21,387 nt of DNA. Origin: a virus. Of this stretch, positions 2,813-21,387 are shown in pieces. Positions within the stretch are counted from its first letter, which is position 1. Every line of letters begins with the position of its first letter. The notes under the pieces are model-generated. The model did not search any database, had not been told where the DNA came from, and worked only from the letters and a program-made list of their open reading frames with translations. The stretch lies in IMG/VR virus record IMGVR_UViG_3300023116_004668, positions 1 to 21,387 of that record. One strand, 5' to 3'. Both the position numbers and the translations under genes were made by a program.

Positions 2813-3210
2813 TACGCCTCCTCTACACTAAAGCTCAAATTATAATAAATGCATTGTGAAACAGGATCTCTTCTAAGAATAGTCTCACTATATTGGTCAA
2901 TAAAACCATAAAACTCAACATCAACCCCATTCGGATCATCACGATAATTCACCAAAATCTTAGGAGGAGACTTAGTAGCCAAACTATAAATATAATCCCT
3001 GGCTTTTCTTGAATCAAAAGCATGAGACTCACCAGAAGGAATATAGTTGTACTGAACCTGAAGACTCTTCTTGTTACGACTGAAAAACCTTTTCTGACGG
3101 CCCGCAGAAGTCTCCACGTTTGAAGCATTAATTGTTTCAGATGAAGAGAACTTAGCACCACCAACAGTCAACTCTTGACCATCTAAACTTAAAAACTTAA
3201 CATAAGCCAT
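2812..3210 (-). CDS. Distal tail-like / minor tail protein, single-domain paralogue
   Basis: This 132-residue protein directly follows the tape measure gene, where siphophages usually encode the distal tail (Dit) protein that closes the tube and anchors the tip. It is predicted beta-rich with a basic aromatic segment (RQKRFFSRNKK) followed by a YIPSGE motif and a C-terminal QYSETILRRDP motif. The same series of motifs appears in the C-terminal domain of the next gene, so the two are likely paralogues. It is shorter than typical Dit proteins, so it may be only the N-terminal ring-forming part. The ATG shares a base with the tape measure TAA (TAATG). The upstream GGGAG (3225-3221) is ten bases away, so translational coupling probably contributes. 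The Dit assignment is from position and paralogy, not a recognised signature. Confidence 0.68.
   Translation of the reverse strand: MAYVKFLSLDGQELTVGGAKFSSSETINASNVETSAGRQKRFFSRNKKSLQVQYNYIPSGESHAFDSRKARDYIYSLATKSPPKILVNYRDDPNGVDVEFYGFIDQYSETILRRDPVSQCIYYNLSFSVEEA
2813..2823 (-). promoter_or_regulatory. Strong ribosome-binding site inside the end of the upstream gene
   Basis: GAGGAGG (2823-2817) lies four bases before the ATG at 2812 and encodes the E-E of the upstream protein's C-terminal V-E-E-A. Stop and start are fused as TAATG. The arrangement is almost identical to that at 1508-1520. Confidence 0.75.
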
Positions 3211-6200
3211 TAGAACGAAGCTCCCTTGTAAGTAGTGTAGATCGGATCAGTTATACCGTATCTACGGTCATCAGTTCTCTTATGGTTAATATTGTAATCT
3301 TTAAGCATCTTCCTAAACCACTCATCCTCACCGATAAAATTATCAACATAGATATTTGTTGTGTTGTTAGTATTGTAGCTATTTACAATGCCAGCACCCT
3401 TGCCATAGTCAGGTCTTGGAATACCAAACTTGATATCTCTTGTATCAGGTAAGTAAGGCAAAGTGCTAATACCACCACCCATATTCAATCTTTGCTTATT
3501 AAGAGACTCAAGAATTTTAGAAGTCAAACCAATTCTATCAACAGCAGCCTTATTAAGAACATACTCGCCACCATGAAGAATAGCAGGAACAGCAGTGCTG
3601 CCGAAGCCCGGAACAGCAAAGCCACCAACACCATAACTAGCAACTCCACCCTTACCATAAGGAACAATACCACCCTTAGCACCAACAAACTGGCCTCCAG
3701 TGCCAAAGAAACCTTGACGGAACAACTTATCGAAGTAAGCCTGCAATTGCGCCTTCATCGCACCCTGCGGAAGTCTAGCAATCTCCTTATTGATCTTCTC
3801 CTGCTTCTCCGCTAAAGTATCTGACTTATTAAGAGTTCCGGTGATGTTCAAAATGTTCTCTTTCATGGCTGCAACAGCACGATTCATATTGTCAGCAGAG
3901 CCACCGAATGCCCTTCCGTAACCACCACGATCAACCTTAGCAAACAGAGCATCCTCAAGAGCCTCAGACAACCAGTCACCACCAGAAGTAACATCAGTCA
4001 AAGAAGTACCAATAGTGTTAATACCTCCAGCAGCACCAGAAGTAGCTGCCTCAATCTTAGCCATAGAAGTAATAATATTCTTTGTCAGCTCATCCATACC
4101 ATCAGCAATATCATCCACAATGCTATTGGTCGAACCAAGCATCTTGGCATACTCTCTCTGAATAATCAGGTTAGCTTCAACAAGAGCATCTTCCATGATG
4201 CCATCAGGATCAAATGCTTCAATAGCATCATTCATTTCCTGAATAACAGGTTCAATTTCATCCGTAACTATTGCATCAAATGCAGCACCAATAGCTGTTC
4301 CCACAGCAGTGACTTCGCCAGAAAGACCTTGCAGATAGCCTTCAGGATCAGTGAACTGATTATTAATTCCAGACAACATCGCAGCAGTTGCCCCAAGAAT
4401 CGTATTTGGATCATTAGCACCAGACTCAAGACCAAATATGTCTTTAGCACTCTGAACCAGCTCATTCAGTGGAGTTTCAAAGAACCCAACCGTTGGGTCT
4501 GTGTACTGATTAATCAGATCAGGTATTGCAGTGTAATAATCTTCGAAGGCGCTGAGCATGTCCTCAGAAGCAAGCTGAGCCTCACCAACAATAGCTTGGA
4601 ACTGAGCCTCAAGCTCTTCCTGATTGTAAGTACCATGCTTACCAATTTCTTCAACAAACTTCTCAAAATTAGAAATAATCTCATCAAAAGTCTTAGCAGC
4701 ATCTTCCTTTTGACGTTCAAGAATTGCACGAACAATATCCCTCTGCCTCTGCTGCTCTTCCCTTACACGATCTCTACTAATCTTCTTATCTTCAGCAGCA
4801 TTATCAGCATCAGTCTTTCTCTGCTCAAGATCCATCATACGAGCATCATCAACACGACCCTCATAGATTGCTAAAGCACGATTTCTTCTATAATTCTCCT
4901 GCTGCAACGCACGATCACGCATCCTCTGGCGATCCTGCTCAATACGCTCCTGCTCCTTAAACAGATCCTGCTCTGCTTTCTCCAAAGCATCAATCGCAGC
5001 AATCTGCTCATCAAACACCGACAAATAAGCATCCTTCTGATTCTGAAGTTGCTCAGTCAAATCACTCTTAAGTTTCGAAATAGCATTACCCAAAATATCA
5101 ACAACAGCATCAATAAACTTCTGAGCACCATCAAGCAAAGCATCCTTAACAGAATTTGCGGCATTCTCAGCATTCTCAGTTAACGACTCACCACCGGCAT
5201 CAATAGCCTGAGCATAAGCATAACCAATATCTTCCGACAACTCCCGAATGTCTCTAACAGTATCACTCTCAACCTTAAACGGAAGGGCATCAAAAGAAAC
5301 ACCATACTTTCTTTCAAACTCAGCCCTTGCCTCTTCTTTCTTCTCAGCAATACTTGCAATAAACTCATCAAACTTTTCATTACTAAACTCAATAGCACCA
5401 TCCAAGAACTGATCAATCTTCTCCTGAAGACCGCTGCCCTCATACTCAGGAATATCAAGATTAGCAAGGAAGCCAGACAGACCGCCCGTGACATTATCCA
5501 TGTCACCACCCTCACCAAACAACCATTCATTAATCTGATCAACAACATTACCCTTGCTGCCAGACAAAGCGTCCTCAATAGACTGAGACATCGAATCTTT
5601 CCAACCCTCAACAGTGTCTGAATCAAAAACCTGAGTCAACGCATCTGAAGCGTCATCAAACCCTATATCCATAAACTTATTAAGATCATCCTCTAGACCG
5701 CCAGTAAATTCAGTAAATGCGTTATTGTTCCAATCATATTCAAGCAACGAATCCAGCGCATCCCCCACCAGACCCGCTCCAGCGCTAACTCCACGCGCAA
5801 TACCATTGGCAAGACCATCACCAATATCAATTCCGGTTGAATATTCAAAACCTTTAGACGCATAATAAGTAGGGTCAAGCCACTTCACCCAGCCACCAAC
5901 CTTTTCAGCAGCAGCCTCAAGGAACCTAGCAAGAAGAACGATCATTTCACCAAGAATCTTTCCAAAGCCCGGAATCAAATTAACAAGGGTGAATAGAATC
6001 TTAGTAACAAGTTTTCCAGTCATCTTTACAGACCACAGTTGGAACTTAGCCCAAGCTTCAAGCATGGCAAAAACAATATCAGGAATATATGTAGGTAGGC
6101 TAAACAATATATCAGTAATCTTTAAAATAGCTATTGCAAAATACTTAACCAAAGTAGGACCAAATGTTTGAGAAACAAATTCCAAAATCTTACTAAACAT

Positions 6201-9200
6201 CGAGACAGCTTTAGGAATAAATTCCTTAAGCTTTGTAAGCATAAACGCAATCAAACCTTTCCAAATTGGAGCAAGAATCTGAGTGACGCTCATCATATAA
6301 AGCTTAATACGATCCATCGCCCGACCAAATGCCTCGCTAGACTTCTCAGATTCACCAGAAATCAAAGCACCAATACCTTTAAAGATATCCGAAACAATGT
6401 TGATTAACTGCCTCATTGCACTCACGGCTTTATCGACAAACTTCTTGAACCCTTCAGATTGAGTCAATCTTTCTATTGCACCCGAAATCTTTTCAATACC
6501 AACAAGAACAAGCGCAGACAAGTTCGAGAAAGCACCACCAGCATCATCAGCACCAGAACTAAGCCCAAACAAGCTTGCAATACCTTTAGCAAACGGAGTA
6601 AACAAAGCGGTAAGAGCAGCCTTCAATTTAGCAACAGCAGCACTAAAACGCTCCTTCAAACTAACCGCTCTTTCTTCAGCATCACCAGTTGCCTTAAATG
6701 CCGTTGTAAGCCTCTTAATTGCAATAACAACAGCAACAAGACCGGCAATAGCAGGACCAAATATCAAACCAGCAGTAACAAGCTTAGTAACTTTCTTCAG
6801 CACACCAAACATTGACTTACCAATTGTAACAACAGTGCTAACCACCGTTTTGGCAAGCTGGCTTGCTGCCGTCATCAAACCTTTAACAAGATCAGTCGCA
6901 AGTTTAACAATACTCTTAAACACATTACCAATAGCTTTACCAATCTCAAAAAGACCACCCATGTTCTTTTGAAGCATCTGAATGACACCAGCAGCAATTT
7001 GAACAGGAGCCTTGATCAGAGAACCCAGCAGTTTAACGCTATTACCCAAAGTTGTAAGAATAGTCTTGCCCAAAGTCCTAGCAGTATTCAAAAGACCCTT
7101 TTGAGCAGTAAACACACCGCCCCAACCCTGCGTCACCATAGCCTTAGTGCCAGCAATTGACTCAGAGAAAGCCGTTCTAAAGATCTGACCACGACCAAGA
7201 GTCGTGCCTGCTTTTTGAGCAGCAGCCTGCATCTGAGCAACCCTAGCTGTGCTCTTAGCCGTAACCAAAGCAGAACCAATAACAGCAATAGCCTTACCTG
7301 TTTGGAAAGCAATCTTTCCGACAGCAACCCCCGCAGCAGCCGACAACTTCGCAAATGATAAACCAATCTTAAGAGCAGACTTGCCGATAGTCAATCCAGC
7401 AACACCAATAGTTTTACCAACATTCCAACCTTTAATGGCAATATTCTTTGCAGCAACAGCAGCAGCCTTGCCCTTCTGGAGCATCACCTTGCCGACCGTC
7501 TTCAAGAAATTAAGAACACTAACTGTATAACCCCTGATGGCGGAAAGTGTGCTAACAGCAAAAGCCTTAATTGCAGCAGCCTTAGCTTTAATAAACCCTG
7601 CAATTTGCACAGCCTGTGCCTTAATCGACTTGGCAGCCTGAATAGCAGCAGTCTTCACATACGCAGCAGCAGCCTTAGCAGAAGATGTTATATAAGCAAC
7701 AGCAGCCTTAGCAGTAGATTTCACATAAGCAGCAGCAGACTTAGCAGCAGCACGAATCATGGCAGGAGCATCTTTTAGGAACTGCGCAACCCTAAGCGCC
7801 CCTTGCTTAATTGCTTTAGCCATATTAATAAATGAAGTCTTAACGCTTATAGCAAAAGCTTCAACAGCATTAGCAGCAGAAAGAACACCATTAACGATAG
7901 CAACCTGAAGAATTCGAACCTTCCTGACAGTCTCAGCAACAAATGCCTCAATAGAGTTTCCTACCGAAATAATGTTGTTAATGACTGCAACCTGTGCGAG
8001 CCTAATTCTACTCATCGCTCCAGCAACTTTAGCTTTAGCCGCAGCAAAAGCCTTCCTCAATCCGACAGTATGCTTATCAAAGAAAACACTCAGAGCAAAC
8101 ATGATTGAACCCGGATTTTCAATCAAACTATAAACAGCCCTACCGAAAGAAGTAACCTTGGCTTTAAGCAGCCTTCCAGACTTAAGAATCATAGTTCTAG
8201 CCTTGTCAGCATAAAGAGACAGCAACAAGAACATGCTGGCCGGATCAGTCATCAACTGACCAATTCTATAGCCAGCCACCTTAACGGCGTTATAAGCCCT
8301 TTGAGCCATTGCTTTAATAGGAGCAAGACGCTCACGAATACGAGCCTCAAGCTCCCACAGAGCGGTAAACAGATTAAAGAAGAACTGATCAACTCTAGCA
8401 CCAGCATAGAAAATGGCAGCAGCAGCCTGTCTACCAGCAATCCTGACCCCACCAACAATCTTTATAGCTGTTGCTCCAATAAATTTATATGTAGCCTCAA
8501 TACCAGCGCTGATAGAAGCCGCAATTTTAGCCCCAGTGTCCTTGATGAAAGCTACGGTTTTAATTCCAGCATTCTTGATAAAAGACACAAAGGCTGTTGC
8601 AGCAGTCTTAATTGAAGTAACAATCTTAACTTGAGCAGCTTTAATAGCCGCAGACGCTTTAGACGTAACAGCCCTAATAGCAGCCATAGCTCTACCCACA
8701 ACAGCCTCAATCTTGCGAGAAGTCTTAGTTGCACCAATAGCAATCTGAGCATCAGCTATAGCCATCGAAGGCTCAGAAACAGCCCTAACGGTTGCAGCAC
8801 CAAAGACCTTTACAGCACCAGCAGTAAGAGTCGCACCAGCCTTAACTTGAGCAATAACTGGCTTAGAAGCCGCAACAACAGCAGCAGTCGCCTCTTGAAC
8901 AACAACAGGGGCATCCAAAACAACCGCTTTACCAACAGCCCTGTTATAACCAGAAATAGACTTCCTTACAGCACCAAAACCTGACTTGATAGCATTCAAA
9001 CCAGACTGAGCAGCTGTCTTAACAGAAGCAACTGCATTCTTAAACATGCCCGGAATAGATTTAACAGCACCAACAACAGTCGTGTAGTATCCACGAACAG
9101 TATTGGCAACAGCAACAGCTCCGGCTTTAAGCGACTGGAGACCCTTAACAGCGTACCCCTTAATAGTATTTGCTGCTCTTACAAGGAAAGCAGCAGCAGC

Positions 9201-12200
9201 CTTGATACCATCACCAGCAGCTTTCAACACTTTTCTAATTTGATCAGCAAGGAACGAAGCAAAGACCTTAAGTTTATCAACACCAGCAGCAACAACCGCT
9301 CTAACTTGAGCAGCAGCACGCAAACCAAAAGCTTTAACCTTGACAAGCCCAGACATGACAGCAGCTGCAATATTCTTCGCTGCCACCGCAAGTCTTGCAG
9401 TCAAAGACACAAAGAAATCTTTAATATTGACCGCAACAGAAACTATCTTCTTAATAACATGGCCAGCAAAAACCTTAATCTGACCAGCAAGATAGCTTGC
9501 AGCAGCCTTAATCTTGGCACGGAAACCCGGAGGCAACAAAGTATTAGTAATAACCTTTAATTCTTTACCAATCTTAGCCCACTCAGTAACAAGAACTTCT
9601 CCACTCCAAATACCCTTAAGATCAATAGCCTGAGCCAGACGACCAGCACTCACCTTTGGTATCTTCATAGCGCCAACAGCACGACCAGCCAAACGACCAA
9701 CACCACCACCAGCCTTCTTAACAGCACCAGTCAACCTAGGAGCCATCTGAGACAACAACGATGCGCTCTCCCTACCAAAATTACTAAACCAATTACCGAC
9801 ACCACGAACACCTGCACCCAAAGCAGCCGCACCAGCTACAACCTTATCTTTACCAGCTTTAAGCTTTGTACCAATACCAGCAATAAAACCAGCTTTTCCA
9901 ATCTTTCCAAACTGCGTCGCTATAACATTCAACAAAGCAACAGCAGCCCCTCCGCCTTTGGCAATAGCCTTCACAGCAGTAGCACCAGCCAACTTCAAAG
10001 GCGGAATGAACACAGCAGCAGTAGTACCAATCTTCTTAAACTCATCCCTGCTCTGATCGATAGCAAACTTGATTCTGCCACTCACCTTCGCAACATCATA
10101 AGTAAACTCACCCACTGACGCATCAACAACCTGACTCATCACCGCAAATGAATTCGCAATATCAAATGGATCAATATCATCAATCGCCTTAACAGCAACC
10201 GCTGTAGCACCTGCTGCTTCAGCCTTAGCCTCATCAACAGCAACACCCACACCCTCACCAAGCAAACCAACCGCAACCGCCAAGGCATCCAAATCATCTT
10301 GAACCTCTTGAACAGACTTAATCGTAACAGGAACAGCCTCAACAACAGACTTAGTAGCACCACCAAGACCCGCACAAATCGTTTCTGCACCAGCAGTCAA
10401 ATTCAAAGCAAGCTGCTCAACCTCACCACCAACATCAGTAACAGCATCAACTGCAACCGCCGACGCTGCTGCTGCTTGAGCACCAACTGTCGCAGTCGCA
10501 ACACCAACAGAATCAGAAAGAGCATTGAAATACACAGCAAGATGATCAGGATTAATATCATCAATAGCATTAGTTGCAACAGCAGCAGCCTGAACAGTCT
10601 CAGCCTGAACTTCATCAATAGCCGCCTGAACAGGATTCATACCAGCAACTAATGTCTGGCCTAGATCTTCAACGCTAGCACCAGTTTTTTCAATCTCCCT
10701 CAATGCGGCTTCAACAGCCTGCATCACCTTAATAGCAACAACATCAGCTTCAAGAGTTCCAGCAGCAAGTCTCTTAGCAAAAGTTGAATAATTTGCGCTA
10801 ACCTTATTCTTAAGAGTTTTATCTCCAGCAATAAGTTCACGAAGAGCCTCTGCGAGCTTCGCTCTATCCCCACCAGAAGCAGCAATTGCTTTATTGATAT
10901 AATCAATTTGAGGTTGCGTCAACTCTCTATTAAGAACAGCAAGTCTACCCTTAAGATTAGCAACCTGCCTTTGTGCCGCTGTATCTCCAGAATTAGCAGC
11001 AGCCTGAGCCGCAGCAATCTGCCTCTCTAAATTATCAACAATAGCTTGTTGAAGCTCAGCAGCCTTGAGACCCAAGCCACTCAAAGTTGCCCCTGCACCT
11101 GTAGGACCGACAGCGCCACCACGAATAAGAGGAACCGAACCTCTTGCAGCTAGCTGTGCAGCAGGAAGGCTGTCATTAATTCTTTGCTTAATAAAAGCAG
11201 CAGCCCTCATTCCAGTAAGACCTTGCGTTTTAGCTTGGGCAATCGCTTGCTTAGTAATATTTAATAGGTTGTTATTAAGTGCCTCTCTATATCTTTCGAC
11301 AGCACGGGCAACCATACGAAGCTTATCTGATTTTGTGACACCGCTCATCCCAGCAACTGCCTTCTCAGCCCTTCTTGTTATATCAGCAACACCTTGAGAA
11401 ATCTGACCTGCCGCTCTAGAATTAAATCTTTGAACAATAGACTCAGGTGTAGCAAAATTACGACCTCGCATCGGGAAAGCGTCAGTAGGCATCGCTGCAA
11501 CACGCATCACATCTTTCAGGCTGTTAACAGCAGGCGAATAACCACGAAGACTACGAGGAGTTTGTGGCCCAACCGCTCTAGTAAAATCAGTAGTTAACCC
11601 CTGAAGCCCAAAAAGCGTCTTCTGTCGTCTAGCTTGTGCTTTCGTAGCAGCAGCAAGTTCAGCTTCGGCTTCTGTTGCTGCCTTTTGTGCTGCCTGATAT
11701 TTAACATCGTTTGCAAGCTCCATAGCAACAGCTTGTTGACGTACTTCTCTAAACTTTAATTGATCTTTTAATTCTTGCTGAGTCAGCAATTTCTGTTTAA
11801 CCTGCTGCCTCAGCTCTTGCTCAGAGAATGATAGCAACTTATTCTGTGCAGTTACATCCTGAACACGGATATTAAACTGCTTCGCCATTAATGTATTAAC
11901 CTTGCTACTAAAACCTCTCTGGCTAACAATATTTCTACGCACTTTTTCTAGCTGAGCGTTTGCGCTATCATGTTTTACCCGAGCCTTAAGAGCTGCCCTA
12001 GAAGATGCTTGCAAATTTCTATGAGCATCTACAGTAGCACTTTCTAGAATCTTCATTCCAGAACTATAAGCAGTAGACGCTTTAACAGCAGGAGTTAATG
12101 CTTTATTCAAAGCAATAGCCTGAGAGTTTGCTCTCTGTATCGATCTGAACATATCAGGAGGAGTCTCAAAACGGGAGGGTAGAAGTTTACCTGCCGCCTT

Positions 12201-15200
12201 TTTGCCATATTGACCATCATTACTATCAAAACTAGAAACATCTTGCAAGAAATTACCAATACCTCGGCTGAGTGCCCCTGATGCCTTAGTATTAGCCATA
12301 GTTCTAAAACCAGCCCTACCCGGAGTTAGCGACTGCAACGCTCCTTCTTTTATGTCATCAATCAAAGAAGTAATACTTCTCGTAGTCATCTTCTTGAAAC
12401 CCATTTTTTCAAAATCCATACGTCTTAAAGCGTAAAGAACCTCAGGAGCAGGTGCCCTTCCAGCTTTAGCAAAAGCTTGCAAAATCTGTGACTGTATAAC
12501 CTTATTTAAATCTTGACCAGCTTTAGCAGCAACCTTAGCAGCTTTACCAGTTACCTTAGGAGCAGCCACCTTGGGGACAACCGGGGCTGGCGCTTGCATT
12601 GATGCAAGGGCTTTACCAAAAGCTGGACCATACCCAGCAGCAGGGATTCTCGAAACAGCAGGTTTAGGGACAGCGGTGGCTCCTGCAAGGCCCATAGAGG
12701 CACCCGCCATAGCTTTCTGATAGGCTTTTGTCGTGGGGCCAGTAACAAGCTTCTTTCTACCACCAATAGCAGAATTAATACTATCCTTAAGAGCTTGAGT
12801 CGCTGCGCTAGTAGAAGCAGTAGTCGCAGCCTTTGCAGCAACAGGAGCAGCAGCCTGTGTTGCAGAAGAAGCGGCTTGCGCAGCAGCCTGTGTTGCACTA
12901 CCCTGCATTGACGCAAGAGCTGTGCCGAGATAGCCTGTGGCGGGAGGTACGGAAGGTTTTACAACAGGTCTAGGAATAGGCTTAGGAGTAGGCTTAGGAC
13001 CAACAGTCGCAGGAGGCGCTCTTGCACCAGTAGCTCCAGAAGTAGGTGCGGAACGAACAGGGGTAGAAGGACCAACAGGTATAACACCACCAGCAGCCGC
13101 AAGTTTTGTCAATGCATCAATCTTTTTAATACTTAAGCCTTTAATACTAGCCGCAAGATGTGCCATCGCAAGAGCTTGAGCCTCTATCGCAGCAGCAGCA
13201 GCAGTCATCCCAGCAGCATTGCTAGCAAGAATCGCTTCAGTAGCAGCAAATGCAGCCAATCTATCAACAAAAGCTTGAGTCGTTGCTTTCTTCTTAGCTG
13301 CCATAGCTGTAGCTTGCGCAGCAAGCGGGCCGTGTACATTCGCAACAGCACCCGCCAAGATTTGTTCAGCAGCAGCAAGTTGCCTTGTAGCACTAGCAAG
13401 ACCCCTAACAGCAAGGATCTTTCTTTGCTGAGCCTGTGTCAACTGGACAGTTGAAGAAGCTTGAGTTTGCTGAGCAGCAGCTGTTTTAGCAGCTGCTTTA
13501 GCAAACATCTGATTTAATCGGAACAGCCTCCTAAGGTCAGCAGCATCATCACCCCCACCAGACCTAGAAGCTCTATTCAAACGCCTCTGGAACTGCTTCT
13601 TCGTACCTTTAAAGAAATATGTATCTTCACTAATCCTAGACAATTTGCTACCAAACTTATCAAGATTTTTTACTCCAGCAAGAGTATCAGCAGCTAAAGA
13701 AAAACCACCACGACCAAGCAAACTGAATCTCGAAATAGCACCAATAGTTTTAAACATCGTCCCGGCAAGAAGACCCATCACCTGAGTCAAGTTAGAAAAG
13801 ACAGAAATCAGAGGACCTAAAGCCATAGCCATCAAGAACGAACCAGCAATAAAACTCTTAGTCCCATTGCTCATCTCACTAATAAAATTAGCAATCCTCT
13901 TGATAGTAGGCATTAACGAATTCAAAGCATCAACAAGAGGCGGAATTAGCTCCCTGCTGATCCCCTTAAAAGTCTCTTTAGCCCTAGCCAGTTTCACAGC
14001 AGGTGTCTGCAAAGCTCTTTCAAGCTCTTCATTTAACTCAGAACTTGCTTCACCAATACCTCTTGCCTGAGCCAGAATAATCTTGCCAGCCTGACTGCTA
14101 ATCTGATCAAGGACATCACCGCCACCTTCAAGAGTGCTCTTAAGCTCCTGATTAGCTTCAGCCTGACCTTTAGTGATTGCCTCATACAAAGCACTTCCAC
14201 CACTATCAAAACCTTTAGCATACTCATCACCTGCAACTCTAGCAATCTGACCAAGCTCAGCAATATCGCCAGCAGTAAACAGACCACCACCTAAGGCTTT
14301 TCTTAGCTCATCCTCTAAACCAGATTCAATAACAGCCTTGTTTACGTTATCAACAATTGTGTTAGCAATGCCGTAAGCCTCACTTGCGCTATTAGCAAGA
14401 TCCTCTTGGAACCTAGACAACTCAACAAAAGCAGTGAGCATTCTGGAACCCTGACGAACACCGAACAAACGTGCATACAACTCAAGAGCACCCTGCGCAC
14501 CCTTAGCGTTCTCTAATGCAATAAATGATCTTGCCAGCTCAGCGACAGACTCAATACCAACACCGACTTCAAAGTTAAATCCACCAATACTGCCTGCCAG
14601 CTCATCAAGAATCTCCCTGTTCTGTTTAGCTGGAGCAACAAGCCTCTGCAAAGACACTTTGATAGAGTTACCAGAAGCTCCCACCTCAAATCCAGCAGCA
14701 ATCATTGGAGCAAAAGCAGCAGCTGCCTCTGAGGTTGTTAGACCATAAAGGTTTGTCACAGCAATCATTTCAGGGATTGCTTTAGACAATTTCTGCATTG
14801 TAACAACAGTATTGTTCTCAATTGTGTTAAACAGAGCAAGAGTGCCACGCACCTGATCAACCGCTAAACGGTACTGTTCAATGGTTGAAAGTCCACTGCC
14901 CATTGCACGATTAAAGTTCTGAGTGTTAACGGCACCCAAGAACAAAGCCTGAATAAATTCACGGCTAGTTGTTATATCAACATCACCAACTTTTTCAATA
15001 GCAGCAGTAAGTTCAACAAGATCGCCAATAACTTGCGTATCAGTCAAACCAATAGTTGCAAAGTCAGCAGCAATTCCCTGAACAAGATCCCTGGCTACAC
15101 CAAACTTATAGCTAACATTGTCAAGATCTCTTTCCAGCGCTTCAGCAGCTGTTCCCATTCTATCGAATCTCTTCTCCAGAACTTTTTCGTCAAAACCAGC

Positions 15201-15869
15201 TCTTTCTATTTCAACCAGCTTAAACAACACAGCTTCTTGTTGGTTGTACAAATCAAGAGTGGACTGGCCTACAATCTTATTAAACCTAACAACTTCAGTT
15301 TCTAACCGCTTAAAAGAATCCAAACCAAGCCTAAAGAACTGAATCAGTGGCAAAGTTAAACCAATAGTAAGGTTGCGACCAACATACTGAAGGTTCTTAC
15401 CAACATTCAGCAAATTCTTTGATAAAGACTGAGCATCTCTAATCGCAGAGGTAAACCTAATAGCCCTAGAAGCCTTTTGAATATTAGAAAGATTCTTTCT
15501 CGCCTGAAGAAGTTTGGTATCAAACTCAGTCGCCCGACCAATAGCTTTCCTAAATCCGGCACCTATCATATCCTTGCCGAAAGCGCTATTTAAATCATTG
15601 ACCTGCCTTCTGGTCATCTTTAAATGACTGGATAGTACAGCAGCATTCTTGGATGCATCAAGCATGGTTTTTGCGTAAACACGCTGACCATCGGCCCCAT
15701 AGCCTAAAGCAGAGTTTAACGCTTTTTGCGATCTAGCATAATTTTTTGTTTGATCATTTACACGATCAATTGTAGTAATAAGATTTTTTAAACTGCTAGA
15801 AAGATTGGTAATATCACGCTGTACGAAACCCTGCATATGGGCATTTATCAGAATGTCATAATCAGCCAT
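3210..15869 (-). CDS. Tail tape measure protein (4219 aa)
   Basis: The tape measure sets tail length and is ejected through the tube at infection. Residues about 180-495 match the TP901-type tape measure core (a helical segment from LDSFKRLETEVVRFNK to LTAFVELSRFQED, with an ITTSREF and MxKLSKAIPEM region). Residues about 668-710 and 3027-3053 are strongly hydrophobic and could be membrane-inserting. A Pro/Ala/Gly linker covers about 915-1125. Residues about 1130-3000 are Ala/Lys-rich helices with internal repeats. A charged coiled coil (Glu/Gln/Arg) spans about 3626-3740. The C-terminus carries the common tape measure motif: Gly-rich VGGFAVPGFGSTAVPAILHG followed by GEYVLNKAAV (about 4057-4115). 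No peptidase M23, lysozyme or NlpC/P60 motif was seen. The ATG at 15869 has only a weak AGG upstream. At about 0.15 nm per residue the predicted tail is roughly 630 nm. Confidence 0.97.
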   Translation of the reverse strand: MADYDILINAHMQGFVQRDITNLSSSLKNLITTIDRVNDQTKNYARSQKALNSALGYGADGQRVYAKTMLDASKNAAVLSSHLKMTRRQVNDLNSAFGKDMIGAGFRKAIGRATEFDTKLLQARKNLSNIQKASRAIRFTSAIRDAQSLSKNLLNVGKNLQYVGRNLTIGLTLPLIQFFRLGLDSFKRLETEVVRFNKIVGQSTLDLYNQQEAVLFKLVEIERAGFDEKVLEKRFDRMGTAAEALERDLDNVSYKFGVARDLVQGIAADFATIGLTDTQVIGDLVELTAAIEKVGDVDITTSREFIQALFLGAVNTQNFNRAMGSGLSTIEQYRLAVDQVRGTLALFNTIENNTVVTMQKLSKAIPEMIAVTNLYGLTTSEAAAAFAPMIAAGFEVGASGNSIKVSLQRLVAPAKQNREILDELAGSIGGFNFEVGVGIESVAELARSFIALENAKGAQGALELYARLFGVRQGSRMLTAFVELSRFQEDLANSASEAYGIANTIVDNVNKAVIESGLEDELRKALGGGLFTAGDIAELGQIARVAGDEYAKGFDSGGSALYEAITKGQAEANQELKSTLEGGGDVLDQISSQAGKIILAQARGIGEASSELNEELERALQTPAVKLARAKETFKGISRELIPPLVDALNSLMPTIKRIANFISEMSNGTKSFIAGSFLMAMALGPLISVFSNLTQVMGLLAGTMFKTIGAISRFSLLGRGGFSLAADTLAGVKNLDKFGSKLSRISEDTYFFKGTKKQFQRRLNRASRSGGGDDAADLRRLFRLNQMFAKAAAKTAAAQQTQASSTVQLTQAQQRKILAVRGLASATRQLAAAEQILAGAVANVHGPLAAQATAMAAKKKATTQAFVDRLAAFAATEAILASNAAGMTAAAAAIEAQALAMAHLAASIKGLSIKKIDALTKLAAAGGVIPVGPSTPVRSAPTSGATGARAPPATVGPKPTPKPIPRPVVKPSVPPATGYLGTALASMQGSATQAAAQAASSATQAAAPVAAKAATTASTSAATQALKDSINSAIGGRKKLVTGPTTKAYQKAMAGASMGLAGATAVPKPAVSRIPAAGYGPAFGKALASMQAPAPVVPKVAAPKVTGKAAKVAAKAGQDLNKVIQSQILQAFAKAGRAPAPEVLYALRRMDFEKMGFKKMTTRSITSLIDDIKEGALQSLTPGRAGFRTMANTKASGALSRGIGNFLQDVSSFDSNDGQYGKKAAGKLLPSRFETPPDMFRSIQRANSQAIALNKALTPAVKASTAYSSGMKILESATVDAHRNLQASSRAALKARVKHDSANAQLEKVRRNIVSQRGFSSKVNTLMAKQFNIRVQDVTAQNKLLSFSEQELRQQVKQKLLTQQELKDQLKFREVRQQAVAMELANDVKYQAAQKAATEAEAELAAATKAQARRQKTLFGLQGLTTDFTRAVGPQTPRSLRGYSPAVNSLKDVMRVAAMPTDAFPMRGRNFATPESIVQRFNSRAAGQISQGVADITRRAEKAVAGMSGVTKSDKLRMVARAVERYREALNNNLLNITKQAIAQAKTQGLTGMRAAAFIKQRINDSLPAAQLAARGSVPLIRGGAVGPTGAGATLSGLGLKAAELQQAIVDNLERQIAAAQAAANSGDTAAQRQVANLKGRLAVLNRELTQPQIDYINKAIAASGGDRAKLAEALRELIAGDKTLKNKVSANYSTFAKRLAAGTLEADVVAIKVMQAVEAALREIEKTGASVEDLGQTLVAGMNPVQAAIDEVQAETVQAAAVATNAIDDINPDHLAVYFNALSDSVGVATATVGAQAAAASAVAVDAVTDVGGEVEQLALNLTAGAETICAGLGGATKSVVEAVPVTIKSVQEVQDDLDALAVAVGLLGEGVGVAVDEAKAEAAGATAVAVKAIDDIDPFDIANSFAVMSQVVDASVGEFTYDVAKVSGRIKFAIDQSRDEFKKIGTTAAVFIPPLKLAGATAVKAIAKGGGAAVALLNVIATQFGKIGKAGFIAGIGTKLKAGKDKVVAGAAALGAGVRGVGNWFSNFGRESASLLSQMAPRLTGAVKKAGGGVGRLAGRAVGAMKIPKVSAGRLAQAIDLKGIWSGEVLVTEWAKIGKELKVITNTLLPPGFRAKIKAAASYLAGQIKVFAGHVIKKIVSVAVNIKDFFVSLTARLAVAAKNIAAAVMSGLVKVKAFGLRAAAQVRAVVAAGVDKLKVFASFLADQIRKVLKAAGDGIKAAAAFLVRAANTIKGYAVKGLQSLKAGAVAVANTVRGYYTTVVGAVKSIPGMFKNAVASVKTAAQSGLNAIKSGFGAVRKSISGYNRAVGKAVVLDAPVVVQEATAAVVAASKPVIAQVKAGATLTAGAVKVFGAATVRAVSEPSMAIADAQIAIGATKTSRKIEAVVGRAMAAIRAVTSKASAAIKAAQVKIVTSIKTAATAFVSFIKNAGIKTVAFIKDTGAKIAASISAGIEATYKFIGATAIKIVGGVRIAGRQAAAAIFYAGARVDQFFFNLFTALWELEARIRERLAPIKAMAQRAYNAVKVAGYRIGQLMTDPASMFLLLSLYADKARTMILKSGRLLKAKVTSFGRAVYSLIENPGSIMFALSVFFDKHTVGLRKAFAAAKAKVAGAMSRIRLAQVAVINNIISVGNSIEAFVAETVRKVRILQVAIVNGVLSAANAVEAFAISVKTSFINMAKAIKQGALRVAQFLKDAPAMIRAAAKSAAAYVKSTAKAAVAYITSSAKAAAAYVKTAAIQAAKSIKAQAVQIAGFIKAKAAAIKAFAVSTLSAIRGYTVSVLNFLKTVGKVMLQKGKAAAVAAKNIAIKGWNVGKTIGVAGLTIGKSALKIGLSFAKLSAAAGVAVGKIAFQTGKAIAVIGSALVTAKSTARVAQMQAAAQKAGTTLGRGQIFRTAFSESIAGTKAMVTQGWGGVFTAQKGLLNTARTLGKTILTTLGNSVKLLGSLIKAPVQIAAGVIQMLQKNMGGLFEIGKAIGNVFKSIVKLATDLVKGLMTAASQLAKTVVSTVVTIGKSMFGVLKKVTKLVTAGLIFGPAIAGLVAVVIAIKRLTTAFKATGDAEERAVSLKERFSAAVAKLKAALTALFTPFAKGIASLFGLSSGADDAGGAFSNLSALVLVGIEKISGAIERLTQSEGFKKFVDKAVSAMRQLINIVSDIFKGIGALISGESEKSSEAFGRAMDRIKLYMMSVTQILAPIWKGLIAFMLTKLKEFIPKAVSMFSKILEFVSQTFGPTLVKYFAIAILKITDILFSLPTYIPDIVFAMLEAWAKFQLWSVKMTGKLVTKILFTLVNLIPGFGKILGEMIVLLARFLEAAAEKVGGWVKWLDPTYYASKGFEYSTGIDIGDGLANGIARGVSAGAGLVGDALDSLLEYDWNNNAFTEFTGGLEDDLNKFMDIGFDDASDALTQVFDSDTVEGWKDSMSQSIEDALSGSKGNVVDQINEWLFGEGGDMDNVTGGLSGFLANLDIPEYEGSGLQEKIDQFLDGAIEFSNEKFDEFIASIAEKKEEARAEFERKYGVSFDALPFKVESDTVRDIRELSEDIGYAYAQAIDAGGESLTENAENAANSVKDALLDGAQKFIDAVVDILGNAISKLKSDLTEQLQNQKDAYLSVFDEQIAAIDALEKAEQDLFKEQERIEQDRQRMRDRALQQENYRRNRALAIYEGRVDDARMMDLEQRKTDADNAAEDKKISRDRVREEQQRQRDIVRAILERQKEDAAKTFDEIISNFEKFVEEIGKHGTYNQEELEAQFQAIVGEAQLASEDMLSAFEDYYTAIPDLINQYTDPTVGFFETPLNELVQSAKDIFGLESGANDPNTILGATAAMLSGINNQFTDPEGYLQGLSGEVTAVGTAIGAAFDAIVTDEIEPVIQEMNDAIEAFDPDGIMEDALVEANLIIQREYAKMLGSTNSIVDDIADGMDELTKNIITSMAKIEAATSGAAGGINTIGTSLTDVTSGGDWLSEALEDALFAKVDRGGYGRAFGGSADNMNRAVAAMKENILNITGTLNKSDTLAEKQEKINKEIARLPQGAMKAQLQAYFDKLFRQGFFGTGGQFVGAKGGIVPYGKGGVASYGVGGFAVPGFGSTAVPAILHGGEYVLNKAAVDRIGLTSKILESLNKQRLNMGGGISTLPYLPDTRDIKFGIPRPDYGKGAGIVNSYNTNNTTNIYVDNFIGEDEWFRKMLKDYNINHKRTDDRRYGITDPIYTTYKGASF
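7482..7745 (-). repeat. Eight 11-residue (hendecad) repeats in the tape measure
   Basis: Residues about 2709-2796 divide without gaps into eight 11-residue units, beginning AKSAAAYVKST, AKAAVAYITSS and AKAAAAYVKTA, then more divergent units (AVQIAGFIKAK, LSAIRGYTVSV). An aromatic or bulky hydrophobic residue recurs at the seventh position with Lys or Thr near the ninth. Eleven residues make close to three helical turns, so this should be one long straight amphipathic helix. Confidence 0.8.
10086..10595 (-). repeat. About four 41-43-residue repeats in the tape measure
   Basis: Residues about 1759-1928 contain four diverged units, visible as AVATNAIDDINP, AVAVDAVTDVGG, VPVTIKSVQEVQ and AVAVKAIDDIDP, spaced 41, 43 and 43 residues apart. 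The first and last are the most alike. A weaker fifth unit (ADVVAIKVMQAV) may precede them. The segment is acidic and Val/Ala-rich, unlike the basic helices around it. Confidence 0.6.
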
Positions 15870-18198: not shown

Positions 18199-18584
18199 AG
18201 CTGCTCAACCACCCTTCTCAAAATTGCACAAATATGATGCTTCTTCCCACCCCACCCGAACTTGGGCTGGATTGCAACAATTTCAAATGGCCCTTCTTCA
18301 ACTACATTTCCAAATCGATCTTTAATGTTTTGAACTCTATTCTCGTAGTTGATTATAGAATCATACTCTCCAGCAACAATAGCTTCATACACCGCAATGT
18401 TTTCAACATACGGGGCCAGTCTTCTATCTCCACCAGTTGTCTGAGTACTAGGTGACTGGAAATGCATAGGGATAGTTTGACTTAATGTAAAAGAAGCGAC
18501 CTTCTGTCCAGCTGCGTTAGTAGTCACAGTCTTGGCGTAAACCTCACCAGTCTGCACATATCGCAAATACCCCTTAACTGCCAT
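18195..18584 (-). CDS. Head closure / head-tail joining protein
   Basis: The 129-residue, mostly beta protein follows the adaptor, where SPP1 gp16 / HK97 gp7-type head closure (stopper) proteins are encoded. These form the ring that seals the portal channel after packaging. Visible features are the segment around YVENIAVYEAIVAGEYDSII, then RVQNIKDRFGNVVEEGPFEI and a final HHICAILRRVVEQL strand, which together suggest a small beta barrel with a loop. The ATG at 18584 overlaps the adaptor TGA by one base (TGATG) without a strong ribosome-binding site. The family call is moderate and rests mainly on order and beta-rich composition. Confidence 0.62.
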   Translation of the reverse strand: MAVKGYLRYVQTGEVYAKTVTTNAAGQKVASFTLSQTIPMHFQSPSTQTTGGDRRLAPYVENIAVYEAIVAGEYDSIINYENRVQNIKDRFGNVVEEGPFEIVAIQPKFGWGGKKHHICAILRRVVEQL

Positions 18585-19507
18585 CAGACAACGTAGTCCA
18601 TAATAAACATGGTGTAATCCATTAGAAGTATATCTGCTTCAATGTTACCAGTTGATTCATAAAAGTTATCCTTCATCCTAAACTTAAGAATATCCATATC
18701 AACCTCGTACACACCATGACGACGATACTCTGAATCGTCATTCATCAAATCTTCAATCAATAAATCAGCAGCCTGCTTAATGTTCAAAGGAACTTCAGGC
18801 CAGCCAAAATCCCCTTCAATCTTATAGTCAGAATGCTCTTTGAATGTCTTACCCATAATTCTTGAACTGTTTGTTTGAACAACATTAGATTTAAATCTTA
18901 GAAAGTATGCAGCCTCAAAGTTAAAAGGCTTTCTAACCTTTTCAATATTAGACAAGCTGCTATCAGCGTAATCATGAATAATTTCAGAATCAGAATCACC
19001 AGAATTAATTGTCACTTTTCTTAAAGTGTTAATAGCAACAGGCAAATGCAAAGCTGTATGATTTGACCCATCAATTGTTAAACTCTTATTTGGATAGTAT
19101 TCAAAAGATTGACCACAAAAAGTATCAATCACACTTCTGGCTCTTTTCTCATAATAATCAAACCTTGAAGCAAAGCTTGAAAGCTCGGAGTGATTTGCAG
19201 AGAACTCAGCCCAATTTATATAAGGAGTGTAAACATTAATGTACTGAGACTGAGAATACTGAGTTCCTGATATCTCATAAGTAAAATCAGCTCTATGCTT
19301 ACCAGCAGAATTCAAAACATATATACCCGAATCCTGCTGACCGTATGTTATCGTATACACCCCCTCAGAAGACCTTGTTGCAGCAGTAGCAGCTTGAACA
19401 ACGTCACCAAACTCATGCGTCAAAACAACACTCACAGCATTAGAGTCTGCGTCCGAAGGAAGAGTCAACGTCAGCGTTTTAGCTGTATTAATCTTGACAT
19501 CATCCAT
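18584..19507 (-). CDS. Head-tail adaptor (gp6/gp15-like) with extra N-terminal Ig-like domain
   Basis: Residues about 95-307 fit the portal-binding adaptor family: helix FASRFDYYEKRARSVIDTFC, then GQSFEYYP, a beta segment (LTIDGSNHTALHLPVAINTL followed by RKVTI), and a C-terminal GDFGWPEVPLNIKQAADLLI helix leading to the YRRHGVYEVDM region. These residues are typical of adaptors (CGRSF-like and GWxxVPxxIxxA motifs). Residues 1-93 are an additional beta-rich, Ig-like or BppU-N-like domain (LTLTLPSDADSNAVSVVLTH through a YTITYG strand) that ordinary 100-200-aa adaptors lack. The ATG at 19507 has GGAG (19517-19514) six bases upstream. It is the first clear neck gene, so portal and capsid genes are expected to the right. 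Confidence 0.82.
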   Translation of the reverse strand: MDDVKINTAKTLTLTLPSDADSNAVSVVLTHEFGDVVQAATAATRSSEGVYTITYGQQDSGIYVLNSAGKHRADFTYEISGTQYSQSQYINVYTPYINWAEFSANHSELSSFASRFDYYEKRARSVIDTFCGQSFEYYPNKSLTIDGSNHTALHLPVAINTLRKVTINSGDSDSEIIHDYADSSLSNIEKVRKPFNFEAAYFLRFKSNVVQTNSSRIMGKTFKEHSDYKIEGDFGWPEVPLNIKQAADLLIEDLMNDDSEYRRHGVYEVDMDILKFRMKDNFYESTGNIEADILLMDYTMFIMDYVV

Positions 19508-19519
19508 TTAAATCTCCAT

Positions 19520-19597
19520 TCAGCAATCGCAAAGATCGCAACCGCACTCGCAACGCTCTTCGCATCTGCAATTGCATCCGCAATACTTATTTCTCAT
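19520..19597 (-). CDS. Cys-rich microprotein (25 aa, nine cysteines)
   Basis: ATG at 19597 to TGA at 19522-19520 encodes 25 residues. Cysteines are at positions 6, 8, 10, 12, 16, 18, 20, 23 and 25, giving mostly Cys-x-Cys spacing with Gly, Asn, Arg, Glu and Asp between. This is like metallothionein or another metal-thiolate peptide, but no family is recognised. All nine are TGC, unlike the T-ended codons typical of the neighbouring genes. The stop lies 12 bases before the adaptor start. No Shine-Dalgarno sequence is present, but TATAAT lies exactly six bases before the ATG, the arrangement of a leaderless transcript. It could also be a non-coding hexamer repeat that happens to be open. Expression is unproven. 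Confidence 0.45.
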   Translation of the reverse strand: MRNKYCGCNCRCEERCECGCDLCDC

Positions 19598-19603
19598 AAG
19601 ACT

Positions 19604-19609
19604 ATTATA
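19604..19609 (-). promoter_or_regulatory. Candidate -10 box for a leaderless transcript
   Basis: A perfect TATAAT is followed by six bases and then ATG (19597), so the expected transcription start is the A of the ATG. There is no good -35 at 16-18 bases. An inverted repeat, TACCTA and TAGGTA (outer edges 19630 and 19608, 11-base spacer), overlaps its upstream edge and could be an operator. Leaderless starts of this form are common in Actinobacteria. Tentative. Confidence 0.35.
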
Positions 19610-19635
19610 CCTAAAAAACAACTATAGGTACATGG

Positions 19636-19821
19636 TTACAATTCGTCTTCTGATATAAAGATAACAGCAAGCAAATGCACAGCAAGAGCAGAAAGGCTTA
19701 TCCAAATACCCCAATTTCTAGTCTGACCAGACAGGGTGATCAAAACCAACCCTGTGCCAGCAAGAGTCCAAGCCAGAGAATAACTTTCTTTTAATACTCT
19801 TTTTAAAATCTTTTTAATCAT
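19636..19821 (-). CDS. Small membrane protein, two predicted helices (61 aa)
   Basis: A basic amphipathic start (MIKKILKRVLKES) is followed by two hydrophobic segments, about residues 14-32 (LAWTLAGTGLVLITL) and 37-56 (GIWISLSALAVHLLAVIFI), and an acidic end (SEDEL). Both termini would probably be inside the cell by the positive-inside rule, as a hairpin. Size and topology fit a small holin or other phage inner-membrane protein, but it lies in the structural region without an endolysin nearby, so I leave the function open. The start is firm: AGGAGG (19832-19827) five bases upstream and an ATGA overlap with the previous stop. Confidence 0.7.
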   Translation of the reverse strand: MIKKILKRVLKESYSLAWTLAGTGLVLITLSGQTRNWGIWISLSALAVHLLAVIFISEDEL

Positions 19822-21387
19822 TTAGACCTCCTTGATGAGCTTCCACGCTTACGTGGGCCATCAGAGCCTCCTCCGCCACCTCCCCCTGAGCCTCCAGATG
19901 TCTTAGGGCCAGAAGGACCGGCAGCAGCGCCAGCAGTTGCCGCAACAGCAGCCGTGGCTGCTACAACAGTGCGTCGCTCTTCAGTCGTAATATTCGAATC
20001 TTTAGCGACATAATCATTAAAACTCTCATCCTCAAAGATGTTTACAGACTCCTCAAACTCATCTTTAACTTCATCATCAGCCTCAGTCAAAGCAGCCGCA
20101 AGAATAACCTTTGCATCATCAGAAATCTCATCAAAATTATCGTCTTCAATCAAAACTGAGACTTCTTCAACTGTCACATCACCGTCAATAACACTTAAAA
20201 ATTCTTCCGCTAATTCTTCATCTAGTTCATCTATTTCCTGAACAATTTTAATCTCAGCATCATCAACTTCTAATAAATCAACACCTTCGGTATCAATACC
20301 CAACTCTTCAAATTCAACTTTAGCTATTTCAGCTTTTTCCTCTGCAAGCGTCAAGGGGACGGTGGTTGTTGTAGTTGTGGCTCTAGGGGCTGTTGTCGTT
20401 GTTGCAGGCAGGACAGTCGTTGTGGTTGTAGACGATGACGTTGTTGTCGGTGGCAACGATGTAGTGGTGGTTGTAGTTGGAGAGGTAGTGGTAGGTGCGG
20501 GTGGCGGGAGCGTAGTGCTCGTTGTTGTCGTCGTAGAGGACGACGTTGTTGTTACTGGCGCTGTTGATGTTGTCGTTACAGGCACCGTCGTGGAAGTGGT
20601 TGAAGTAGAAGTCGTCGTAGAAGTCGTCGTAGGAGCCACTGTGGTTGTTGGTGGCACTGTTGATGTGGTGGTTGTCGTGGTAGTGCTTGTACTTGGGGGA
20701 ACCGTAGTCGTGGTCGTGGAGGTTGTTGTCGTTGTAGATGTCGTTGATGTAGTCGTTGTGCTTGTTGATGGTGTTACCTCTTCTACTAAAAGGGTGACCT
20801 GCGTAGACCACCCAGAATATATACCCATTGTATCATTATCCGCACGAATATCAAAAACATAAGACTCACCTAAACCGCCTGTGTTTTCAAACAAACTAAA
20901 CGGCAAAGTGTAGTAAGTATTTAAAGCATTATCATCCCCAACATTGCCAGTAGCAACACCCCAACCGGCCTCTGGTGGAATCCTAAACGAAATCGCATAT
21001 CGCTCCGGCTGCACATTGCCGGTGTTAGGAGCATCCCAATCAAGATAGACACCATCAGAAGTCACTTCTCCAGTCAAATTCATAGGTGGACCGATTGTTT
21101 GAGGAACCGTAGTAGTTGTGCTAGTAGTTGTTGTAGTGGTAGCAGGGGTCGCCCAAGCCCAAGTGTTTTGACTGAACCCACATAAGGTTGAAGAAGATAA
21201 TCCTTGACAGATATCCCAAGAAGCGTTAGAAAACCAGCCATCAGGCGGGGAGTTGCTATTGATCGAATTGAAATACGGGTTGGTCAGCAGATTGGTGAGA
21301 TCACTCCACTCGGTGCTTCCGTCTAGTTTTGCTTTGAAAGCGACTTCTTTGATTTCCGTTCCGTAGTTTCCTCCCCAACCTTCGCCA
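19818..21387 (-). CDS. Thr-rich FN3-containing surface/virion protein (5' end outside window)
   Basis: The frame stays open upstream of the first in-window Met (21083) to the edge, so at least 522 residues are encoded and the start is missing. From the edge: a Trp/Asn/Ser-rich segment (about 21386-21151, ending in WAWATPA), a short Thr run (21140-21108), a fibronectin type III-like domain (about 21083-20780; DGVYLDWDAP, ERYAISFRIP and SYVFDIRADN strands), a long Thr/Ser/Pro linker (20774-20349), a very acidic helical segment (about 20348-20000), an alanine-rich hydrophobic stretch (RRTVVAATAAVAATAG), and a poly-Gly, Lys/Arg/Ser tail. Thr linkers plus the (D/E)FEESxNIF...DYV...S-N-I...RR module resemble surface proteins of marine Actinobacteria. 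It may be a head fibre, decoration or adhesin protein; its place just before the neck genes suits a head-associated role. Function unproven. Confidence 0.72.
   Translation of the reverse strand, partial: GEGWGGNYGTEIKEVAFKAKLDGSTEWSDLTNLLTNPYFNSINSNSPPDGWFSNASWDICQGLSSSTLCGFSQNTWAWATPATTTTTTSTTTTVPQTIGPPMNLTGEVTSDGVYLDWDAPNTGNVQPERYAISFRIPPEAGWGVATGNVGDDNALNTYYTLPFSLFENTGGLGESYVFDIRADNDTMGIYSGWSTQVTLLVEEVTPSTSTTTTSTTSTTTTTSTTTTTVPPSTSTTTTTTTSTVPPTTTVAPTTTSTTTSTSTTSTTVPVTTTSTAPVTTTSSSTTTTTSTTLPPPAPTTTSPTTTTTTSLPPTTTSSSTTTTTVLPATTTTAPRATTTTTTVPLTLAEEKAEIAKVEFEELGIDTEGVDLLEVDDAEIKIVQEIDELDEELAEEFLSVIDGDVTVEEVSVLIEDDNFDEISDDAKVILAAALTEADDEVKDEFEESVNIFEDESFNDYVAKDSNITTEERRTVVAATAAVAATAGAAAGPSGPKTSGGSGGGGGGGSDGPRKRGSSSRRSK
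19827..19832 (-). promoter_or_regulatory. Ribosome-binding site of the 61-aa membrane protein
   Basis: AGGAGG, also the two Arg codons near the end of the upstream protein, lies five bases before the ATG at 19821. It supports translational coupling through the ATGA stop-start overlap. Confidence 0.7.
20349..20774 (-). repeat. Low-complexity Thr/Ser/Pro linker
   Basis: About 142 residues are almost only Thr, Ser, Pro and Val (TTTTSTT, VPP, SSSTTTT blocks). On the plus strand this is a GT-rich tract, opposite to the A/C-rich plus strand elsewhere. Such linkers are extended, often glycosylated in secreted proteins, and here separate the FN3 domain from the acidic C-terminal part. Confidence 0.9.

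Follow-up and report, generated by a model that had tools for sequence, protein, structure and literature searches.

Among the described small cysteine-rich proteins, the fungal copper metallothioneins are 26 residues long and carry seven cysteines with a [CXC]-X3-[CXC] core (PMC4755600), and the bacterial protein SmtA adopts a zinc-finger fold (PMC7558416). A search of openly licensed papers recovered no phage metallothionein, although catalogues of small phage genes might mention one. Against this background we analyzed a cysteine-rich microprotein gene from a virus sequence of 21,387 nucleotides (IMG/VR record IMGVR_UViG_3300023116_004668, positions 1 to 21,387), hereafter the window.

The gene lies on the minus strand (19520..19597), running from an ATG at 19597 to a TGA at 19520, and specifies a peptide of 25 residues, MRNKYCGCNCRCEERCECGCDLCDC. 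It is held in the 128-base gap (19508-19635, as read directly from the sequence) between an upstream 61-aa membrane protein matching phrog_29041 (19636..19821, minus strand) and a downstream head-tail adaptor of 307 residues belonging to PHROG 442 (18584..19507, minus strand). Further upstream lies the C-terminal part of a predicted secreted Thr-rich protein of about 770 residues (19818..21083, minus strand). Nine of the 25 codons specify cysteine, each being TGC in the window copy, and the stop codon is separated by 12 bases from the ATG of the adaptor. This short gap includes a GGAG (19514..19517, minus strand, read directly) that is the probable Shine-Dalgarno sequence of the adaptor. On the other side, a TATAAT (19604..19609, minus strand) stands six bases ahead of the microprotein ATG; it is a -10-like box and a probable promoter. 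The gap, the frame, the number, spacing and codons of the cysteines, the 12-base distance and the position of the TATAAT had all been given in a first-pass annotation made from the letters alone, and every one of these details proved correct. Elsewhere in the window, a single ORF of 4219 residues (3210-15869, minus strand) occupies the tail gene region and probably encodes a tape measure protein or a fusion.

Cysteine-richness is a weak argument for a gene in this window, because it contains seven stop-terminated frames with at least nine cysteines among their last 25 residues, and the cysteine count alone was for this reason dropped as proof of the microprotein. The extra frames are presumably ACN (Thr) repeats read as cysteine in other frames. 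Such Thr-rich ACN repeats occupy positions 20300-20900 and constitute a trap for cysteine-based scans. No frame comparable to the microprotein was seen in 300 first-order Markov shuffles; given the seven frames, the reality of the gene had to be decided by conservation.

Homologues of the adaptor were therefore taken from IMG/VR blind to cysteine, and the region upstream of them was then inspected. Among the adaptor homologues of 64-73% identity, those in which the arrangement is preserved have MRTKNCGCGCFCTDHCDCGCDECAC, MRSKSCDCGCECEEHCTCGCEECDC, MRTKSCSCGCECGEHCDCGCDECTC or MRHKHCDCGCECEEHCDCGCEECDC immediately upstream. The first-pass annotation had proposed looking for the Cys-x-Cys pattern at the same locus of related contigs. 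The adaptor-found set comprises five distinct peptides in which 45 of 45 cysteines are retained. A scan of IMG/VR for nine cysteines so spaced, together with the Gly, the Asp/Glu and the stop, recovered 67 viral records with the motif [RK]xK-x-C-x-C-G-C-x-C-x3-C-x-C-G-C-[DE]-x-C-x-C-stop; they comprise 39 different coding sequences, which specify 34 different peptides. A scan in which the first two cysteines were freed returned only known nine-cysteine members and no partial forms, and freeing the fifth, sixth and seventh cysteines yielded no locus beyond the nine-cysteine set. When the C-terminal CxC-stop was not required, one extra true member emerged, which likewise ends in CDC-stop, the remaining matches being low-complexity cysteine runs. 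By these scans, the nine cysteines are kept as a unit.

Beyond these viral records, about 85,000 prokaryote genomes scanned with the pattern lacking the stop gave three matches, all spurious and within long repetitive frames, and the microprotein was absent from them. A tblastn search of cultured phages with the peptide gave no match, the low-complexity filter probably masking the peptide, and a search of cultured phages with the endolysin likewise gave none. The Streptomyces phages Wakanda and Wofford, which are distant in their adaptor, have no such peptide. Comparison with Pfam, NCBIfam, PHROGs and PDB recovered no match to any known metallothionein; this silence says little, because the Neurospora crassa metallothionein used as a control also lacks a Pfam match and has one strong PDB match, namely itself. 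Thus, an all-or-none nine-cysteine family of 23-33 residues (25 in the window) spans at least 67 environmental phage records with no entry in Pfam, PHROGs or NCBIfam, which agrees with the earlier suspicion that relatives might be unannotated, being too short for the usual gene callers. As WhiB genes are frequent in the contigs (28 of 37, in both lineages described below) and rare in controls (1 of 14 genomes, Corynebacterium), the hosts of the phages with the microprotein are most likely Actinobacteria.

The pattern of substitution is that of a selected peptide. Both TGC and TGT are found in every cysteine column of the 39 coding sequences, and pN/pS is 0.27 across the aligned codons and 0.53 for the non-cysteine codons. 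Since the scanning pattern itself demanded cysteine, the calculation was redone on the five adaptor-found sequences, giving 0.30 for aligned codons and 0.62 for non-cysteine codons. The free interchange of TGC and TGT, taken together with the pN/pS of 0.27, shows selection at the level of the peptide, which answers the comparison of synonymous with nonsynonymous change that had been suggested at the outset. Conservation extends beyond the cysteines to an invariant glycine in the second C-G-C, a usual glycine in the first, a lysine two residues ahead of the first cysteine, an acidic residue following the second C-G-C, and the C-terminal CxC-stop. About half of the other non-cysteine positions are occupied by Asp or Glu, and the 20-residue core has 5.6 acidic residues among its 11 non-cysteine residues and a mean of 0.08 aromatics. 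Frame 0 has no internal stop in any of the 39 coding sequences, and frame +2 has stops in all 39. An origin by chance or at the level of the DNA, for example from a hexamer repeat, would draw on the other cysteine-rich frames of the window, themselves probably Thr-repeat by-products; it would not produce synonymous interchange amid conservation, the fixed and non-periodic x3 and x2 gaps or an open frame 0, and this origin, already refuted by the comparative data, has a negligible probability. On conservation rather than cysteine count, the frame is more than chance, and by the same comparisons the microprotein is a real, unannotated and strongly constrained gene.

The downstream neighbor of the gene is the head-tail adaptor at 20 loci and a 109-113-aa LtfC-like or tail-fibre-assembly-like protein at 44. 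On the other side, 66 loci have a preceding gene, and in 58 of them it comes from a single BLAST-linked, mostly lysin cluster. These lysins are M15-like, with invariant SxHxTxRAxD and WxHxE motifs and often with PG-binding domains; the AlphaFold model of one of them shows a weak likeness to zinc LD-carboxypeptidases (LdcB), VanY and the T5 endolysin (best E 0.012), and the assignment consequently leans mainly on the motifs and the PG-binding domains. L108 instead has a glycoside-hydrolase-like lysin. At most loci the start codon of the microprotein overlaps the stop codon of the endolysin or comes right behind it. The closest relative of the window, L236, whose TM protein is 95% identical, has the order endolysin, 80-aa TM protein, ferredoxin, secreted protein, 61-aa TM protein, microprotein and adaptor, and homologues of the 61-aa membrane protein of the window are located in lysis cassettes of related phages. 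The microprotein is the last gene of the lysis cassette in most loci, directly after diverse endolysins. The first-pass annotation missed this cassette end, and also that the family is not bound to the adaptor, 44 of the 67 loci having a different downstream gene.

A second, independent lineage, L226/L245, encodes a holin-like protein of 78 residues, a 46-aa protein, an SNase, the microprotein and a small TM peptide, with overlapping stop and start codons. The SNase-family nuclease lies directly ahead of the microprotein in L128 (3355-3735), L202 (1915-2307), L226 (1960-2391) and L245, and that of L226/L245 is 51% identical to its counterpart in L128. This identity suggests transfer of the SNase-microprotein pair between lineages, the two genes apparently moving together across two phage lineages. 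In L226, a tiny ORF, MFSVLDVISVILGVIAGIAIAGYLNNRHK, begins at the microprotein stop (2463 onward) and might encode a single-TM peptide.

When 40 adaptors were placed in a tree, all 19 that have no microprotein grouped in a single clade (99/99), and the presence/absence label requires two changes as against 13.8 in shuffles, the root of this tree being unsure. The motif is missing from whole contigs of the microprotein-free clade, some as long as 105 kb. A natural deletion is found in L379/L380, in which the adaptor is 79% and the TM protein 93% identical to those of the window; near 3400-3500 the microprotein start codon is altered and about 50 bases of the middle, most of the gene, are deleted, with the endolysin, TM protein, promoter box and adaptor all intact. 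This deletion and the adaptor clade without the gene indicate that the microprotein is dispensable and is not required for lysis or assembly in general. By these comparisons it is lost outright, not cysteine by cysteine. Frameshifts or stop codons in related phages had been put forward at the outset as evidence against the gene; frame damage was encountered only in the lineage L379/L380, where it denotes dispensability and not an absence of coding. The deletion and the gene-free sister clade also provide ready natural comparisons.

These contexts bear on two alternatives that assign the microprotein to a neighboring gene product. The first is that it governs the zinc supply of the M15-type zinc endolysin next to it, either by keeping the metal back or by delivering it, and thereby helps to time lysis. 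The adjacency of the two genes makes this attractive, as do the motifs and the weak structural likeness of the lysins to zinc enzymes, but the idea is weakened by the glycoside-hydrolase-like lysin of L108, by the retention of the M15 lysin in L379/L380 after loss of the microprotein, and by the VanY-type lysins of the clade without it. Furthermore, the nearest relatives of the L154 endolysin mostly precede other genes (of 79 counted automatically, spurious frames included, some 17 are genuine members), and an obligate link to one endolysin was rejected on this ground. Zinc control of the endolysin is hence unlikely. The second alternative, a virion or assembly component in the form of a cystine-linked or metal-bound plug made beside the head-tail adaptor or tail-fibre genes, would suit a position inside the late operon and the nature of the genes that follow. 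However, the lysis setting upstream is retained where the downstream partner changes, no structural gene adjoins the microprotein in the second lineage, and the adaptor is intact after the loss in L379/L380, making a structural role improbable.

Start signals differ across the family. Twenty of the 39 coding sequences have a Shine-Dalgarno sequence, in 14 the start overlaps or adjoins the stop of the preceding gene, three are ambiguous, and two, the window/L231 and L236, have the TATAAT only, with the box six bases from the ATG; these two were assigned by eye. The surrounding TTAGGTATAAT box is invariant in five genomes (the window, L236, L379, L232 and the L269 contig), and in L232 and the L269 contig an extra segment of about 17 bases, with an SD-like stretch, separates the box from the start. 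No good -35 was found near the TATAAT box. Conservation of the box and absence of the SD leader make a leaderless start plausible in the window and its nearest relative L236. The leaderless expression originally proposed is a plausible reading for these two genomes, but most members have SD or stop-overlap starts.

The same promoter-like box, together with a run of cysteine codons just ahead of a gene, would also be in keeping with a cysteine-sensing leader peptide acting as an attenuator of the adaptor gene, an option raised in the first-pass annotation. Such a role appears very improbable: the 12 bases to the adaptor ATG contain no terminator-like site, the RNA fold z is -1.14, the Gly, acidic and Lys positions are conserved, the peptide follows the lysis cassette, not the adaptor, from locus to locus, and the downstream gene, whether an adaptor or tail-fibre-assembly-like, is no cysteine gene.

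Taken together, these observations favor a genuine nine-cysteine, acidic microprotein of actinophages that closes the lysis cassette, is probably expressed late, and for which a metallothionein-like biochemistry is the most likely, as well as a probable, reading. Nine invariant cysteines in a 20-residue acidic core devoid of aromatics, as in short metallothioneins, suggest a thiolate metal cluster. Cysteines make up 9 of the 25 residues, mostly as C-x-C, and the cysteine core has few or no aromatics, both being properties expected of a metallothionein. The metal- or thiol-binding peptide of the first-pass annotation is accordingly retained as the best account of the invariant cysteines and their CxC spacing. 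In this proposal, the nine thiolates of the core C-x-C-G-C-x-C-x3-C-x-C-G-C-[DE]-x-C-x-C would enclose a soft metal, Zn(II), Cu(I) or the like, in a small cluster; going by the beta-domains of mammalian metallothioneins, nine cysteines would suit three divalent ions or, for Cu(I), about six. The peptide might store, buffer or withhold metal (or thiol equivalents) as the cell dies, and the phage would benefit from metal and redox buffering in the terminal, membrane-damaging phase, of which control of a zinc lysin would be one special case. Late production is probable solely from the terminal place of the gene in the cassette, and metal binding and a benefit to the phage are likewise inferred.

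Nine cysteines could also form disulfides or hold an Fe-S cluster, and another thiol-based role, be it in carrying an Fe-S cluster, in redox buffering or in inhibiting a host target, is a minor possibility. It would accommodate the invariant cysteines, and the same phages carry WhiB, of an Fe-S transcription factor family, and in some cases a ferredoxin. The 4Fe-4S ferredoxin gene lies in or near the lysis cassette (L373:1267-1527; L057:2042-2287), but it is present in 2 of 24 contigs with the microprotein as against 6 of 12 in the clade without it, and was therefore rejected as a partner; moreover, 4-Cys Fe-S motifs do not resemble a pattern so dense in CxC. Returning to the metallothionein-like reading, a more far-reaching version is that actinophages carry their own minimal metallothionein, among the shortest known, within the lysis programme, in an SNase- or endolysin-linked cassette that moves between lineages, and acting on metal homeostasis at lysis; this is less likely than not, and we advance it tentatively. 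Should metal binding hold true, this would be the first phage metallothionein as far as our literature search reached, raising the question of why a phage would end its lysis cassette with a gene for metal or thiol buffering.

Several known systems share some features with the microprotein. The trp and cys leader peptides are also short ORFs rich in one amino acid and upstream of a gene, but the microprotein differs from them in the lack of a terminator, in its conserved non-cysteine residues and in having no biosynthetic gene downstream. The phage WhiB-like proteins and ferredoxins are cysteine-rich metal proteins of the same phages, but have 4-Cys Fe-S sites, their own folds and Pfam matches, and are unrelated to it. 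SmtA/BmtA and MymT resemble it as small, cysteine-rich bacterial proteins, MymT coming from Actinobacteria, the probable host phylum; however, they are about twice its length, show no recognizable similarity and are not phage genes. The fungal copper metallothioneins (Neurospora crassa/Agaricus bisporus, Family 8, 26 residues) share with it the length, the CxC-dense cysteines, the [CXC]-X3-[CXC] element and the scarcity of aromatics. They differ in having seven cysteines instead of nine, in the X5 and X2 spacings, in few acidic residues, and in a terminal X3 past the last cysteine where the microprotein ends in Cys-stop, and no sequence homology between the two was detected. In functional terms, the short metallothioneins, as typified by this 26-residue fungal form, are probably the closest analogue of the actinophage microprotein.
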